Origin: Clostridia bacterium
Lineage (GTDB): Bacteria; Bacillota; Clostridia; Christensenellales; Borkfalkiaceae
Assembly (NCBI GenBank): GCA_017408045.1
Contig: JAFQVL010000052.1
Span: 1 to 64,000 of the forward strand
Length of the DNA stretch: 64,000 nt
Direction: 5' to 3'
The notes beneath the pieces were generated by a model. That model saw only the letters and a program-made list of their open reading frames with translations. It had not been told where the DNA came from and made no database searches. The position numbers were made by a program, and so were the translations under genes. Of this stretch, positions 20,885 to 26,938 are shown piece after piece. Numbering within the stretch: the stretch's first letter is position 1; each line of letters opens with the position of its first letter.

Positions 20885-21442
20885 ATGGAGTGGATTTTAG
20901 CAAGCGCGTCGCCTCGTCGGCGCGAACTTTTAAAAGCGTATATCCCCGTATTTGCGGTAATTCCTGCAAAAGGGGAAGAAAAAGCGGCGGTTGGGTTTAC
21001 TCCACAGCAGTTGGTTTGCGCTTTGGCGCGGCAAAAAGCGGAGGAGGTAGCGGCGCTGCCTGAGGTGCAGGGCAAGGCGGTCATCGGCAGCGACACCGTG
21101 GTGGCGTACGCAGGGGAAGTGCTTGGAAAACCCAAGGACGAGGCGGATGCAAAGCGGATGCTTACGATGCTCTCGGGGCAGGTGCACCAGGTATATACGG
21201 GTGTTTGCGTGATTTTGCCAAGCGGCGAACGCATCGTGGAGGCAGACTGCACGGACGTTGCATTCGAGGCTTTGGACGAGGCAACGATTGCGGCGTATAT
21301 CGCAACAGGTTCGCCGATGGATAAGGCTGGGGCATACGGTATTCAGGACGGCGGCTTGGTGAAAGGAATAGAGGGGAGTTATTCCAACGTAGTCGGTTTC
21401 CCCTGCGAACTGTTTGAAAAAATGCTCAAAAGGATAAAATAA
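20885..21442 (+). CDS. maf: Maf-type nucleotide pyrophosphatase
   Basis: House-cleaning nucleotide pyrophosphatase, 185 aa, cytosolic. The N-terminal ILASASPRRRELL is the Maf signature, and the central IGSDTVVAYAGEVLGKPKD and the C-terminal GIQDGGLVKGIEGSYSNVVGFP complete the fold. The family dephosphorylates dTTP, UTP or modified nucleotides and in Bacillus affects septation. AGGTG lies upstream of the ATG. Maf often neighbours mreB in Firmicutes, and an MreB-like gene follows 41 nt downstream here. Confidence 0.93.
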   Translation: MEWILASASPRRRELLKAYIPVFAVIPAKGEEKAAVGFTPQQLVCALARQKAEEVAALPEVQGKAVIGSDTVVAYAGEVLGKPKDEADAKRMLTMLSGQVHQVYTGVCVILPSGERIVEADCTDVAFEALDEATIAAYIATGSPMDKAGAYGIQDGGLVKGIEGSYSNVVGFPCELFEKMLKRIK

Positions 21443-21483
21443 GCATACCATGTACGCGTTTATGGACGGGAGAGTATAGGATT

Positions 21484-22491
21484 ATGATAAAATTAGCGAT
21501 TGATTTAGGGTCATCCGTAACGAAGATTTATCGCGCGGACGCCAACAACGGAATTGCGCTGTTCGAGCCTTCCTGCGTAGCCATTACGGGGGAAGAAGAA
21601 ACGGTGTGCGCTATCGGGAAAGAGGCAAAAAAACTGCTTGGAAAAACGACGGGCGGCACACATATCGTCTATCCTATTTACGAGGGCGTTATCGTTCATA
21701 AGGAGCTTGCGGTAAAGATGTTAAAGGAGTTTATCGCTCGCGCCGAACTTTTGCCGTACGTGCGACGCAGCGAAACGGTGTTTTCCGTTCCCTGCGGCAT
21801 CAGCGATGAACAGCTTGCCGATTATCAGGCGCTGGCAAAGGAGTGCGGCTTTAAGAGGGCGCACTTTATCGAAGTGCCTTACCTTGCGGTATACGGCAGC
21901 GGTATCGTGCTTTCCGATGAGTACCCCGTGTTCACGATTGATATGGGGGCAGGTATTACGAATATAGCGGTGGTGTCCTCAAGCGGTATGAACGCAGGCA
22001 TCTCCATCAACGTCGGAGGCAACGCCATGGATTTGTCTATCGCCGATAAAGTGGCGGAGTGCAAAGGCTTGAACGTCGGCACGCTGACTTCCGAGAGGAT
22101 TAAAAACGAAATCGGCTCTTTAAGCGAAAATGCGAGAGGGACGACGATTGCGGAGGGAAGTTCCGTGCAAACGTATATGCCTGCGTCCGCGTCCGTGCAC
22201 GCGCAGGAAATCGTAGGTAGTATACGCATGTATATTGATAAAGTAATCGAGTACGCGCAGCTGGTGTTGAACCAACTCCCTGCCGAGGTGGCGGCTGACG
22301 TACATCGCAGCGGCGTATTGCTGACGGGCGGGATTATGAAGTTGCCCTATTTGAGGGAGTATATCGAAATGCACCTGCAAATGCCAGCGACCGTGGCGGA
22401 CTCCCCGCATTTTGCGGTTGCGCGCGGCGGCGGTGTTGTTTTAAGGGAAAAGAAACTGTTGTCGAAAATCGAGTTATCCATACGGGATTAA
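21484..22491 (+). CDS. MreB/Mbl-like rod-shape actin
   Basis: Bacterial actin of the MreB family, 335 aa, expected to form membrane-associated filaments that guide cell-wall synthesis. The phosphate loops are IDLGSSVTKI at the N-terminus and TIDMGAGITNIAVV in the middle, and LLTGGIMKLPYL near the C-terminus is the adenosine motif. The length matches MreB. The gene sits beside maf as in other Firmicutes, but no mreC/mreD follows; a terminator lies immediately after the stop and then the accessory island. It is a somewhat divergent copy, so it may be an Mbl/MreBH-type paralogue. GGGAGAG lies about 10 nt before the ATG. Confidence 0.85.
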   Translation: MIKLAIDLGSSVTKIYRADANNGIALFEPSCVAITGEEETVCAIGKEAKKLLGKTTGGTHIVYPIYEGVIVHKELAVKMLKEFIARAELLPYVRRSETVFSVPCGISDEQLADYQALAKECGFKRAHFIEVPYLAVYGSGIVLSDEYPVFTIDMGAGITNIAVVSSSGMNAGISINVGGNAMDLSIADKVAECKGLNVGTLTSERIKNEIGSLSENARGTTIAEGSSVQTYMPASASVHAQEIVGSIRMYIDKVIEYAQLVLNQLPAEVAADVHRSGVLLTGGIMKLPYLREYIEMHLQMPATVADSPHFAVARGGGVVLREKKLLSKIELSIRD

Positions 22492-22596: not shown

Positions 22597-22624
22597 TTGA
22601 CAAACGCAAAAAACCTGCTATAAT
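22597..22624 (+). promoter_or_regulatory. Strong consensus promoter of the large RNA
   Basis: TTGACA at 22597-22602 and TATAAT at 22619-22624 are both perfect matches, with a 16-nt spacer. No protein-coding gene follows for ~1.2 kb on this strand, so it drives the RNA at 22631-23292. Confidence 0.85.
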
Positions 22625-22630
22625 GAAGTT

Positions 22631-23292
22631 GAAAAGGAAAGAAACTAACAAAAAATGTTAGTAATTTTCATAAATAGTCAAGGAGAACTCCGATGAACTA
22701 ACGGGTTGTGCCGTCAGGGGACGGCAAAAGACCGCCGGGACGCGGCCGAAAAAATAGGCTTTATGGTAAAGCCAAATAAAAAAAAGGAGGGTATGAAAAG
22801 CGATGATTCCTTCCCACGAAGAGGCGAAAGCCTAAAAAGTAGCTAAAAACCAAAACTGAAAAGAAATACTCGGAGAGCGTATCCGCAAGAACGATATCGG
22901 CGGAAAATACGAGAAAAGGAGGTTTACGAGCATGATTCGCATGACTTCTATACAAAAAACCGAGCAAGGTGAGGATACTCCACAGGGCTGAGAACGCCAC
23001 CGACGGGAGGTCGGAAGAAGAAGAGGCTGTCTAAGATAGCCAAAATAAGAAAGGAGGTATCTTACCGATGATCTATATCCTGCAAGTAGGGTATCAGAGC
23101 ATGAAAAAGTAAGTGAGGTACAGACCAATGAACGAAATGTATGAGGGCGTTCGTTAAAAGGAAGTAGCCTAAAAAAAGAGAAAGGCAAAAAGCCAAAGAG
23201 CGACCATCCGTCGCAAGAAAAGGTGAAAACGAGAGAGAACGCTCACAACTGAATAGAAAGAAGATAACCCCTGCCGTGTGGCAGGGGTTTAT
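22631..23292 (+). ncRNA. Candidate large structured RNA with mini-ORFs
   Basis: About 660 nt between a perfect promoter and an intrinsic terminator (AACCCCTGCC-GTGT-GGCAGGGGTT at 23266-23289), with no credible protein gene on either strand. Many local stems are present: ACTAAC/GTTAGT (22644-22662), GCCGTC/GACGGC, GGCTTTA/TAAAGCC (22758-22774), AGGC-GAAA-GCCT (GNRA loop), CCGAC/GTCGG, GGCTGTC/GATAGCC and GCGAC/GTCGC, joined by A-rich linkers. AAGGAGG-type words occur at about 22680, 22786, 22917 and 23051. Four precede tiny ATG ORFs (17, 19, 14 and 9 codons at 22793, 22932, 23068 and 23128). Size and texture recall ornate large RNAs such as ROOL, GOLLD or OLE, but I cannot confirm membership in any. 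Confidence 0.65.
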
Positions 23293-23330: not shown

Positions 23331-24116
23331 TCAATCGGTTGTTGGAACGATATTCGGGGTGGGCTTATACCAATCTTCGTCTATGAAACGTTCGCCAAAC
23401 GCGCAACGGGCATAGTTAAAATATGCCGTGATTGCGCCTTGTTTGCCCTTATCGTTTTTAACGGCGCACAAAAAACTTTCCCCTTTTTTAATTCGTTCCA
23501 TATCTTGTATGGTCATAAAGTAATCCTTGCGATATACGCCAAGCACTTTATCGGCGTGATTATATAAATAAAAGTCGACCGTCGTGCAATCTATTCTATC
23601 GCAATCACGGCAAAGTTTCATTTGCGTTGTAACGAAAATCGTAATCCCAAGAGATTGCGCCAAATCTTTCAACCATTTTGCCCGCAACTTTGCTGATATA
23701 TCGGGAGAGAGCAGTTGAAATCCGTCTATAAAAACGCAGTCAAGCCCTTTTTCCGTTTTAAGTTTTATAAGTTCTATGCTGAACGAGATAAAATCATAAT
23801 CAAACGTCCATAAATGCAAGGTTTTGTTTAGTTTATTTTCTATCACTTCCTTAACGCTTTCCCGCACTTCTTTTTCGTGTTCATAGCGATTTAAGTTTCC
23901 AAGAACACAAGCAATATTGTTAAAACACGTGGTTATATTATCGGTTGACGACAAGTATAGGCATTTTTTATCCAAGCAATTTTTTGCAAGAATTTGCAAC
24001 GCCAACGTTGTTTTTCCCATACGGGGTCTGCCTGCAATTACGATTAACTCGCCTGGTTGGATTTCGCCCACCATTTCGTCAAATGCTTTGATTCCCGTGT
24101 TCAATCCGTTTTCCAT
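23331..24116 (-). CDS. Truncated DnaB-like RecA-fold ATPase
   Basis: Protein of 261 aa equal to the C-terminal RecA-like ATPase domain of DnaB helicase without the N-terminal DnaG-interaction domain. Walker A GRPRMGKTT lies near residues 29-37, Walker B is in LDCVFIDGFQLL, and FVTTQM follows as the sensor region. Several Cys (CRDCDRIDC) may be structural or metal-binding. AAGGAG lies 12 nt before the ATG. It is the last gene of an AT-rich five-gene operon that converges on the large RNA. A replicative role is unlikely because the protein is short. Phage-type or defence-associated ATPase is the likely setting, but no function is proven. Confidence 0.75.
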   Translation of the reverse strand: MENGLNTGIKAFDEMVGEIQPGELIVIAGRPRMGKTTLALQILAKNCLDKKCLYLSSTDNITTCFNNIACVLGNLNRYEHEKEVRESVKEVIENKLNKTLHLWTFDYDFISFSIELIKLKTEKGLDCVFIDGFQLLSPDISAKLRAKWLKDLAQSLGITIFVTTQMKLCRDCDRIDCTTVDFYLYNHADKVLGVYRKDYFMTIQDMERIKKGESFLCAVKNDKGKQGAITAYFNYARCAFGERFIDEDWYKPTPNIVPTTD

Positions 24117-24181
24117 AAAAATAAACTCTCCTTAACTTTTGTAAGGAGAGTTTATCATTTTTATTGTACCAATTTTGGGAT

Positions 24182-24346
24182 TTATTGTTCTTGAATATCG
24201 TAGAATTTATATGCGCCAACTCTAATTTTTCCTTGCGCGATATTCACGGCAGTTTCTCTTGAAGAACGAACTGTTTCGGAATAAGCCACAATTCCACAGC
24301 GGTATTGCGTTTCGGTGTGATAGTAACGAATGATAAACGTTTTCAT
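24182..24346 (-). CDS. Small hypothetical protein, 54 aa
   Basis: Small ORF reading MKTFIIRYYHTETQYRCG at its start and ending in YDIQEQ. AAAAGGAGAAATATC directly precedes the ATG, an excellent ribosome binding site. It lies in the same orientation between the 125-aa protein and the DnaB-like gene with short gaps (17 and 65 nt), so it belongs to the same operon. I recognise no family. Its length is below common ORF cut-offs, so it may be missed in annotations of relatives. Confidence 0.7.
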   Translation of the reverse strand: MKTFIIRYYHTETQYRCGIVAYSETVRSSRETAVNIAQGKIRVGAYKFYDIQEQ

Positions 24347-24363
24347 GATATTTCTCCTTTTTA

Positions 24364-24741
24364 TTATATTTTTCTCACAAAATAATACTGCTTATTTAAT
24401 GGCGCTAATAATTTCAAGTATTCAAATCCGTCCAAATTAGGCAAATTTGAATTTATTTCTATCCCCCAATTTTTTTCTTTTTCAACAACAATGAATATGC
24501 CTTTGAATAATATATCATTCAACAAAACTTTCCCTATTTGTTGTTCTTCGTCTATTGAAAATCCTTTCGATTCTATATCTAAAATTATTTTTTCAATGTT
24601 TTTAGTTTTTAATATATTTTTCGCCCAACGCTTTTGTTCTGCTTTTTCTTTTGATAACCCTGCTTTCTTTATACGTTGTTTGTTTTGACGATACATATCC
24701 ATCATATCTTTTTTGATTGATAGCCATTGAATAAAGCTCAT
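24364..24741 (-). CDS. Hypothetical protein, 125 aa
   Basis: Lys-rich N-terminal half (about residues 10-60) predicted helical, and a more beta-rich C-terminal half. AAAGGAG lies 8 nt before the ATG. It is the third gene of the operon, after the PD-(D/E)XK nuclease (42-nt gap) and before the 54-aa protein. Base composition is AT-rich like its neighbours and unlike the rest of the window. I do not recognise a family; a partner or immunity role for the nuclease is a guess. Confidence 0.65.
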   Translation of the reverse strand: MSFIQWLSIKKDMMDMYRQNKQRIKKAGLSKEKAEQKRWAKNILKTKNIEKIILDIESKGFSIDEEQQIGKVLLNDILFKGIFIVVEKEKNWGIEINSNLPNLDGFEYLKLLAPLNKQYYFVRKI

Positions 24742-24783
24742 AAATCACGCTCCTTTTGTTTTAGTAAAAGGAGTATAACACAC

Positions 24784-25803
24784 TTATTGTCCCATTTTTG
24801 GGATCATTGCGACTTTTTTCGCAAAATCCAAATAATCTTTTATACAGTTTTCTATCCAAGCGTTAAACTCTTCATAAGTAAGATTTTCGGTAAATGATTT
24901 CTTGATAATCCTAATTCTGTTTTTATATTTTTTATTCTCCCAACTCAATCGAGGATTCTCAAAACTTAAATTTTTAAGTTCTTCTTTGCGACTAAAAAGC
25001 GTTCTCCAGCCACAATCAGTATCCCATATTTTTATCCAAGCTGTACATTCCCACTCTCTAAAAATTAAACCAAGTTCTACCGTAGCGTTATTTGGTAAAT
25101 TCTTTTGAAGAAAGGTTTGCGCGTATCTTCCCTGGTAAATCTCTGTTCTACAACATTTCTCGTTTATTTTAGTTGAGTATTTTTCAATCAACCTTTTGCT
25201 ATACATTGTAAATACTGCATATGTTTTAGACCACTCGTAAACAGGTTTCGATTGATAATCAAAAAGGGCTTGATAAGTTTTTTTAATGTGTTCTATATAA
25301 TAATCAAGCACTTCGCTGTTTGTGGGAGCAATATCGCTAAAAATAGAGTGTATTTCTTTAATATCAAAAATATTTAGCCATTGAGCTTCTTTTATACGGT
25401 CTTTTTCTTCTTTCAAAATTTCTGCGGTTTTATAGAATACTTTATACACTTTTTCTATTGGATTTTCTTTATTTCCTATCAACCAGCGATTATGTTCTTC
25501 TATTTTTTTATTGTAGTTACTTAACTGCCAATGCTCTTCACTTGTTGTTTTATCTTCTATGACAATTAAGTATTTTTTATTATCAATGGTAAACCAAATA
25601 GATATGTCTATATATTTCCATTGAGCCATAGTTGTTAGATTTTCGATTTTAGAGAAATCAAGCTCGTCGCTTGTAAATTTATTAAAAAGTCTTCGACACA
25701 CTTGTCTTACCTTTTCATTTTTGCAATTATAATTTTCAAACAACCATCTTAAAAAAGCGTCTTGGGATAATTCTTTTGTTGCATAATCAAATAAATTTTT
25801 CAT
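24784..25803 (-). CDS. PD-(D/E)XK nuclease superfamily protein
   Basis: Predicted nuclease of 339 aa. The start at 25803 follows AAGGAG with 8 nt spacing; an in-frame ATG ten codons upstream overlaps the WYL gene. Residues near 55-90 read DISIWFTIDNKKYLIVIEDK followed by QLSNYNKKI, the D...(D/E)xK core and Gln-Tyr helix of the PDDEXK_4-type family. The N-terminus DAFLRWLFENY is also typical of that family. It lies 4 nt after the WYL regulator, so translation is probably coupled. The family is frequent in defence and mobile islands. AT-rich coding supports recent transfer. Confidence 0.8.
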   Translation of the reverse strand: MKNLFDYATKELSQDAFLRWLFENYNCKNEKVRQVCRRLFNKFTSDELDFSKIENLTTMAQWKYIDISIWFTIDNKKYLIVIEDKTTSEEHWQLSNYNKKIEEHNRWLIGNKENPIEKVYKVFYKTAEILKEEKDRIKEAQWLNIFDIKEIHSIFSDIAPTNSEVLDYYIEHIKKTYQALFDYQSKPVYEWSKTYAVFTMYSKRLIEKYSTKINEKCCRTEIYQGRYAQTFLQKNLPNNATVELGLIFREWECTAWIKIWDTDCGWRTLFSRKEELKNLSFENPRLSWENKKYKNRIRIIKKSFTENLTYEEFNAWIENCIKDYLDFAKKVAMIPKMGQ

Positions 25804-25807
25804 TTCT

Positions 25808-26791
25808 TTACTCCTTATATTTTTCATTTGCAACTTGTACGTTTTTCTGGATGCGTTCGCGCAACTCTTTCGGCGATAAAATTTCCACGGCGTTCATGTA
25901 TTGCATCGCCCAATATTCCATGGCGTTTACGCTTGCCTTTAACCGCACCCAAAACCGTCCGTCTTGCCGTTCTTCTATGCGAATATCCTTGCCAAACCAG
26001 TCCACGATTTGGTCGATTGCCCATCCGTCGGCAATAAATTCAATGGCTTGCGGCTCGTCGGCGAACATATAAGGGAGAGCCGATGAAAACCGCTTATAAT
26101 CAATTCCGCTTTCAAAGCCCTTGATCGAACGCAACGGCGTGGACGGCTCGTCCAAAATCACGATATTCGTAATCCGATCCATACGATAATACCGCATTTC
26201 TTGCCATTTTTCGTTGTAGCCCATCAAATAATAGCGTTGGTTATGCAGTATCATTTGATAGGGCGAAAGCGTTTGCTTTGACGTGCGGTGCAACTTCTTA
26301 TCCGCGCCGTATTTATTGTACTCAAAGCGTACCTGCCTGCCTCGTTCGATGGCTTCGTCCACGATTTCAATCGTGTAAAAGACGGAAACGTTCTCCGTTT
26401 TATTCCAATCGTTGACCGAGTAGATATTCTTCACGCGCGGACGGAAATAACGATTGCTTTGCGCACAAAGCCGTTCAATCAAATCCTTGGAATGTTTTGC
26501 GGTAATATATCCGCTTGATAAAACGCCGTCGATTAAAAGCCGAAGTTCGCTGTTTTCAAACGTTCTTTCCGCAAGATACGAGCCTTTTTTCGTCGTTTGA
26601 ATGTCGTATCCTGCCTCACACAAAAGGGAAATATTCCTGCCAAGTGCCTTTCTTTCAAGGATAAGACCATATTCGCTTTCCAAAAGTTCCACGATTTTAT
26701 CGTGTTTCATCGGGTGTTCACAATCGCTATGTTTTTCAAGAATTTGCAAAACGCGAATGAGCGCCAATTTTTTCGGTTCAAAACTTTCCAT
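25808..26791 (-). CDS. WYL-domain transcriptional regulator
   Basis: Regulator of 327 aa with an N-terminal winged-helix/HTH region (LALIRVLQILEKHS...KIVELLESEYG) and a WYL domain near residues 150-220, containing QRYYLMGYNEKW and RYYRMDRI. WYL proteins sense nucleic-acid or nucleotide ligands and often control phage-defence operons. The start at 26791 was chosen because a consensus promoter lies just upstream; longer in-frame starts lie across that promoter. It is the first gene of the five-gene AT-rich operon and may autoregulate it. Its GC content is higher than that of the following genes. Confidence 0.85.
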   Translation of the reverse strand: MESFEPKKLALIRVLQILEKHSDCEHPMKHDKIVELLESEYGLILERKALGRNISLLCEAGYDIQTTKKGSYLAERTFENSELRLLIDGVLSSGYITAKHSKDLIERLCAQSNRYFRPRVKNIYSVNDWNKTENVSVFYTIEIVDEAIERGRQVRFEYNKYGADKKLHRTSKQTLSPYQMILHNQRYYLMGYNEKWQEMRYYRMDRITNIVILDEPSTPLRSIKGFESGIDYKRFSSALPYMFADEPQAIEFIADGWAIDQIVDWFGKDIRIEERQDGRFWVRLKASVNAMEYWAMQYMNAVEILSPKELRERIQKNVQVANEKYKE

Positions 26792-26821
26792 CTCTACAAC
26801 CGCCTTTATTTTAGTATATTT

Positions 26822-26850
26822 ATTATACCAAAAATGTCGCAACAAGTCAA
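26822..26850 (-). promoter_or_regulatory. Promoter of the WYL-nuclease operon
   Basis: On the minus strand TTGACT (26850-26845), 17-nt spacer, TATAAT (26827-26822), about 30 nt before the WYL start. Confidence 0.85.
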
Positions 26851-26885
26851 GACGTAAATAAAAGTAGCGGTAAAGGAGTGTGGTA

Positions 26886-26938
26886 GGGCAGGGGTTTGCT
26901 CCTGCCGTAGAAAAAAGGGCGACCAATGGTCGCCCTTA
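26886..26938. repeat. Two adjacent GC-rich inverted repeats
   Basis: GGCAGG/CCTGCC (26887-26906) is followed by an almost perfect palindrome AAGGGCGACCA/TGGTCGCCCTT (26916-26937). The second can terminate the gene at 26953-27780. The pair sits at the right boundary of the accessory island and looks like a REP-type repeat. Confidence 0.6.

Follow-up and report, generated by a model that had tools for sequence, protein, structure and literature searches.

Several described RNA systems resemble parts of the locus analyzed here. Dual-function small RNAs such as RNAIII, SgrS and SR1 encode one peptide each, and the sequence of that peptide matters. Peptides encoded by sRNAs more generally form a class for comparison (PMC5521070). 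The uORF of ilvB represents a structured uORF, or leader-peptide switch (PMC11109978), and two-codon minigenes, such as those of the EHEC LEE1 leader and mg2 of axe-txe, are translated regulatory elements acting in cis (PMC8708949). The raiA-motif (ModT) RNA is, like the RNA described below, a stand-alone structured RNA of Bacillota (PMC11706538), but the two share no match in sequence or structure. Finally, ROOL, GOLLD, OLE and HEARO are stand-alone RNAs of several hundred nucleotides, highly structured, with A-rich linkers and their own promoter, and our locus presents all these traits. In contrast to them, it has no match in Rfam, is a chromosomal core gene, is modular (390–900 nt) and contains conserved mini-ORFs that appear to be translated.

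The window (the whole stretch of 64,000 nt of DNA that was analyzed) belongs to a 1.28-Mb, 81%-complete MAG of a Clostridia bacterium. The locus presents the following features:

22597–22624, plus strand: promoter with TTGACA, a 16-nt spacer and a TG-extended TATAAT, matching the sigma-70 consensus at 12/12.
22631–23289, plus strand: approximate transcript of ~660 nt, with the start inferred from the promoter and the end placed at the terminator hairpin.
22637–22669, plus strand: 5' hairpin H1 (GAAAG..CUUUC and the ACAAAAAAUGU stem-loop), an inverted repeat.
22680–22701, plus strand: ORF A, ATG AAC TAA (MN, stop) at 22693–22701, with its SD at 22680–22685.
22710–22725, plus strand: hairpin H2 (GCCGUC-AGGG-GACGGC), with compensatory changes in 4/5 pairs.
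22732–22745, plus strand: hairpin H3 (GGGA/GNRA-type loop in relatives), with compensatory changes in 6/6 pairs.
22803–22835, plus strand: ORF B (MIPSHEEAKA, stop), 10 codons, with SD AAGGAGG at 22784–22790; conserved in long forms.
22932–22991, plus strand: ORF C, 19 codons, with SD AAGGAGG at 22916–22922; found in most long forms, usually with 9–21 codons.
23051–23112, plus strand: ORF D (MIYILQVGYQSMKK, stop), 14 codons at 23068–23112, with SD AAGGAGG at 23051–23057.
23128–23157, plus strand: ORF E (MNEMYEGVR, stop), 9 codons, with SD GTGAGG at 23113–23118; the stop of D lies 15 nt upstream of its start.
23145–23152, plus strand: 5' arm of the closing helix of the 3' domain (GGGCGUUC), within codons 6–9 of ORF E.
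23237–23255, plus strand: 3' arm GAACGCUC (23237–23244) and the conserved AACUGAAUA (23247–23255).
23266–23289, plus strand: terminator-like hairpin AACCCCUGCC-GUGU-GGCAGGGGUU, 10 bp, with a broken U tail.

The initial annotation had described a structured RNA gene of about 660 nt bounded by a consensus promoter and a terminator, in a region without a protein gene, and our analysis bears out this description, although the U tail of the terminator is interrupted. The same type of promoter was observed in 47/47 homologues of the genus (g1), and most homologues possess terminator-like hairpins. The minimum free energy of the transcript is much lower than that of shuffled sequences (respectively, −189.4 and −141.1 ± 5.2 kcal/mol; z = −9.3). 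No long ORF was found on the plus strand of the locus, where stop-free stretches reach a maximum of 30–49 codons. On the minus strand, the longest open stretch occurs in the window copy (136 codons), relative to at most 89 and 93 codons in the relatives G013 and G036. We rejected an antisense protein gene, given that promoter, terminator and covariation all lie on the plus strand.

Kinship with ROOL, GOLLD, OLE or HEARO had also been suggested, but the comparison with Rfam 15 speaks against it. The window yielded only tRNA at the gathering threshold and, at E ≤ 5, the locus yielded three unrelated chance matches and none to ROOL, GOLLD, OLE, HEARO or raiA. Nothing relevant was found in Rfam for 13 diverged homologues of the family. 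Two further candidates were discarded: a divergent tmRNA, since the true tmRNA is encoded elsewhere in the same genome and in its relatives, and a CsrA sponge of the CsrB/RsmZ type, since CsrA was detected in 0/21 relatives while the controls were positive. A stand-alone RNA of such a build is not described in the literature that we searched, which is weak evidence given the partial coverage of this search.

We then considered the distribution of the RNA. Matches were obtained by BLASTN in 55/57 genomes of the genus (E ≤ 0.01), some of them limited to the promoter, and a covariance model of the 5' domain identified the RNA in 51/57 of these genomes, essentially as a single copy in each. This model also matched g4, g5 and g10, three further genera of the family, and reached 145/398 genomes at E ≤ 1e-3, many of these matches being weak individually. 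Among 59 loci that were inspected (g4, g5, g10 and divergent members of g1), most share the promoter, the 5' leader and the order of ORFs. In the rest of the order, a sequence-only 5' model returned no convincing members, only weak matches (E about 1e-5) that lay mostly over the promoter. The contigs of GTDB with the core pattern are all Clostridia MAGs and their source, where given, is ruminants (roe deer, sheep and water deer). The association with phages or mobile elements proposed initially was not recovered: searches of phages, plasmids and viral contigs returned no matches, and the RNA occupies a single core locus. One g10 genome (G318) carries two divergent copies, L101 and L117, with 3-codon ORFs (MKA, MIR and MKI, each followed by a stop) and the repeated hairpin CGGYTGACGGAGGT, which possibly represent a second subtype. 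A sub-threshold match to the TPP riboswitch (36.7 bits) was observed at L118:2612–2705.

The RNA is built of modules and its transcript ranges from ~390 to 900 nt across homologues. Short forms (about 390–450 nt) are composed of ORFs A, D and E, and long forms, including the window copy, additionally contain B, C and structured inserts. Duplications of modules (ORF C, A+D, or D units) in L016, L046, L048, L112 and L155 lead to more mini-ORFs per RNA. In total, homologues present 3–7 SD-led mini-ORFs of 2–20 codons. The four such ORFs reported initially for the window copy appear genuine and under selection, but the copy contains five, the two-codon ORF A having been overlooked. Likewise, the recurring AAGGAGG words are present at 22784, 22916 and 23051, and the other two SDs (22680 and 23113) are weaker.

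Three ORFs are common to all forms: A (2–5 codons), D (9–19) and E (8–12), these being ranges across genera from which outliers exist. The stop of ORF A occurs after 2–3 codons in 46/46 homologues of the genus, when about 8% per genome are expected from shuffling. ORF E contains 9–11 codons in 44/47 g1 homologues (about 11% per genome expected from shuffling), 8–11 codons in 23/23 sequences of g4, and either 10 (22 sequences) or 12 (three sequences) codons in g5 (n = 25). For both A and E in g1, stops in the other two frames are scattered, with the exception of the AUGA overlap. The length of ORF D is 13–21 codons in 42/45 g1 homologues, 12–19 in g4 and 9–13 in g5. The gap between the stop of D and the start of E measures 4–18 nt in 40/47 g1, 21/23 g4 and 25/25 g5 sequences, a distance compatible with termination-reinitiation. 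As far as sequence comparison can tell, the starts, SDs, stops and lengths of the mini-ORFs are thus strongly kept across three genera. The idea that purine-rich loops merely mimic ribosome-binding sites is contradicted by these data, because a mimic has no need of conserved in-frame stops.

The start of ORF E is also constrained in its context, with CC[A/G]AUG followed by NAC as the second codon in 47/47 g1 sequences. This codon is NAC and never NAU in 23/23 g4 and 25/25 g5 sequences, for which the search pattern fixed CC and limited this codon to [TA]A[CT]. In the window copy, CCRAUG with a NAC second codon (Asn/His/Asp/Tyr) is seen at both ORF A (22690–22698) and ORF E (23125–23133). Queuosine-type tRNAs decode the NAC codons, and a reason at the RNA level is as likely as one involving these tRNAs.

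The helices of the RNA are likewise supported by covariation. In the 5' domain, 14/26 modelled base pairs present changes on both sides, amounting to 65 cells with both-side changes; shuffling gives 15.7 such cells, and sliding a maximum of 16. Helices 1–2, in the region of H1, are paired in 93–95% of cells and include both-side changes. The hairpin of B (helix 5), where the SD pairs with codons 3–5 of the ORF, is paired in 81% of cells with zero both-side changes. The GNRA-type loop mentioned in the initial annotation is clear in relatives (GGGA) and less so in the window copy.

As in uORFs, the mini-ORFs with their conserved SD, start and stop overlap helices. This is best seen in ORF E, where nucleotides at about +17 to +26 pair with the strand directly upstream of AACUGAAUA in 47/47 g1 sequences. 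The arm begins close to where the front of an initiating ribosome would lie, and ORF E terminates directly after the arm. Pairing of each sequence with its own strand was stronger than with swapped strands in g1 (47 sequences; −11.9 vs −7.7 kcal/mol; 0/20000 permutations) and in g4 (−13.1 vs −9.1; 0/10000 permutations), these permutation tests ignoring phylogeny, as do the shuffle tests. For g5, the difference was smaller with a corrected 3' anchor pattern (24 sequences; −12.1 vs −10.6; 1/10000 permutations), and 12 sequences with poor 3' anchors yielded 2173/10000 permutations. The recurrence of the E-helix in three genera is a safeguard against shared ancestry in these tests. In relatives, a second helix is formed by GUUAAAG, which overlaps the start of the SD of ORF D, and CUUUAAC in the codons of D (−8.6 vs −7.0; 0/10000 permutations, phylogeny ignored); in some species, among them that of the window, part of this helix has been replaced.

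Together, kept starts, stops and lengths and drifting peptides suggest that ribosomes moving along the RNA may operate a switch or a sensor. We propose, with a probability of about one half, that the locus encodes a stand-alone, translation-gated structured RNA. Since the helix arms are placed such that translation to the stop would open them, the passage of ribosomes, and not the peptides, would be the feature under selection.

Alternatively, the locus could be an operon of micropeptides, i.e., an mRNA encoding several functional peptides, each of 9–20 residues, in which structures only tune translation. The conserved SDs, starts and frames are consistent with this, as is the recurrence of peptide motifs within the genus (MIPSHxEA, DTPTYT and RYFNKE). 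However, the peptides are wholly different between genera despite their similar lengths, and ORF A yields only 2–5 residues. In the larger sets, pN/pS is 0.56–1.01, such that amino-acid replacements accumulate at nearly the pace of silent changes, and it is low in one small set of three 16-codon D ORFs (0.14); the ORFs being very short and overlapping helices, these values are compatible with selection on some residues. Moreover, the apparent conservation of peptides (RYFN and the end of E) coincides partly with helix arms; the RYFN motif of D is kept because its codons form a helix arm (CUUUAAC). The sequences of the peptides thus appear weakly constrained, with lengths kept, and their drift disfavours a function of the peptides themselves. 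This weakens the set of micropeptides envisaged initially, and we consider such an operon unlikely. Of the original options (an RNA, micropeptides or both), "both" comes nearest, in the form of a structured RNA gene with mini-ORFs that appear genuine and selected.

It is rather unlikely that the RNA does not switch at all and is only a sink, i.e., a highly transcribed decoy with many SD-minigenes that would soak up either initiating ribosomes or, via peptidyl-tRNA drop-off, tRNAs. The consensus promoter, the 3–7 strong SDs per RNA and the minigenes of 2–3 codons, a kind known for drop-off (PMC8708949), would all fit such a role. But it leaves the conserved overlap of codons and helices, the D-to-E spacing and the longer ORFs unexplained, and a few hundred copies would hardly be enough to titrate all ribosomes.

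Another possibility is that the GGAGG motifs of a structured RNA serve structure or binding and that adventitious translation is tolerated, stops being only brakes that protect the fold. This would account for SDs located within helices and for stops that come soon after starts. Yet the loss of an AUG would be easier to select, and starts are instead kept at SD spacing in a fixed CCRAUG context; in addition, E stops beyond the helix arm, so that translation would open the helix rather than spare it. We therefore view this explanation as improbable.

The upstream neighbor of the RNA is usually an MreB-like gene, with Maf further out (Pfam), and in some species the MreB-like gene lies downstream and is convergent. 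In the window, Maf and the MreB-like gene are in tandem at 20885–22491; these genes adjoin the RNA in about 30/47 genomes, in either orientation. The downstream neighbor in the window is a convergent DnaB_C-type ATPase, and downstream genes vary elsewhere. This ATPase belongs to a minus-strand cluster (23331–26926) with two ORFs without Pfam match and a WYL-domain regulator. The cluster is absent at the corresponding place in relatives and is probably an accessory insertion beside the RNA. The mobile-looking operon noted initially therefore concerns only the downstream convergent neighbor, the RNA itself being a core locus beside MreB/Maf. An attenuator or leader RNA for a neighboring gene, which the short ORFs and the terminator bring to mind, requires a constant co-oriented downstream gene and is contradicted by synteny, the gene found there being convergent in the window and variable, often convergent, elsewhere, which makes it highly improbable. 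Because of these variable or convergent downstream genes, the RNA is most simply a stand-alone core gene.

Returning to a translation-gated RNA, transcription would probably be constitutive. From the conservation of sequence, structure and ORFs revealed by comparison, we infer actual translation, D–E coupling and switching. Ribosomes would initiate on the mini-ORFs, and their initiation or passage would melt helices: those proximal to the SDs of B and D and, through codons 6–9 of E, the closing helix of the 3' domain. Each stop would free the ribosome before the next domain. ORF A would load ribosomes, D would pass them to E by termination-reinitiation, and E would open the 3' domain. The RNA would alternate between a ribosome-loaded open state and a ribosome-poor closed state and could signal or buffer the state of translation in trans, with peptides as by-products. 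More tentatively, and at less than even odds, the string of mini-ORFs might work as a ribosome-driven switch relay in a stand-alone transcript and represent a novel type of regulatory RNA, in which ribosome traffic, instead of a peptide, a metabolite or a downstream gene, sets the conformation of the 3' domain and its activity in trans.

If true, this RNA class would be neither messenger nor non-coding, with translation selected for its mechanical effect and peptides as waste. It would help to study how bacteria gauge their capacity for translation, and it is a warning that a conserved short ORF need not equal a functional micropeptide. Even with function set aside, the RNA constitutes a family that is conserved in four genera of uncultivated gut Clostridia and missing from Rfam.

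With uORF attenuators such as ilvB, the RNA shares short SD-led ORFs, which in those systems change adjacent helices when translated (PMC11109978). Unlike them, it presents several ORFs in series and no regulated downstream gene, and its output must either act in trans or reside in the RNA. ORF A resembles two-codon minigenes (SD, AUG, one or two codons, stop), but the latter affect a downstream cistron in cis (PMC8708949), whereas ORF A belongs to a stand-alone RNA and is kept across genera. Finally, as in dual-function sRNAs, a single transcript is structured and, putatively here, translated; what sets it apart from them is its 3–7 mini-ORFs, whose length is kept and whose peptide sequence appears only weakly constrained.
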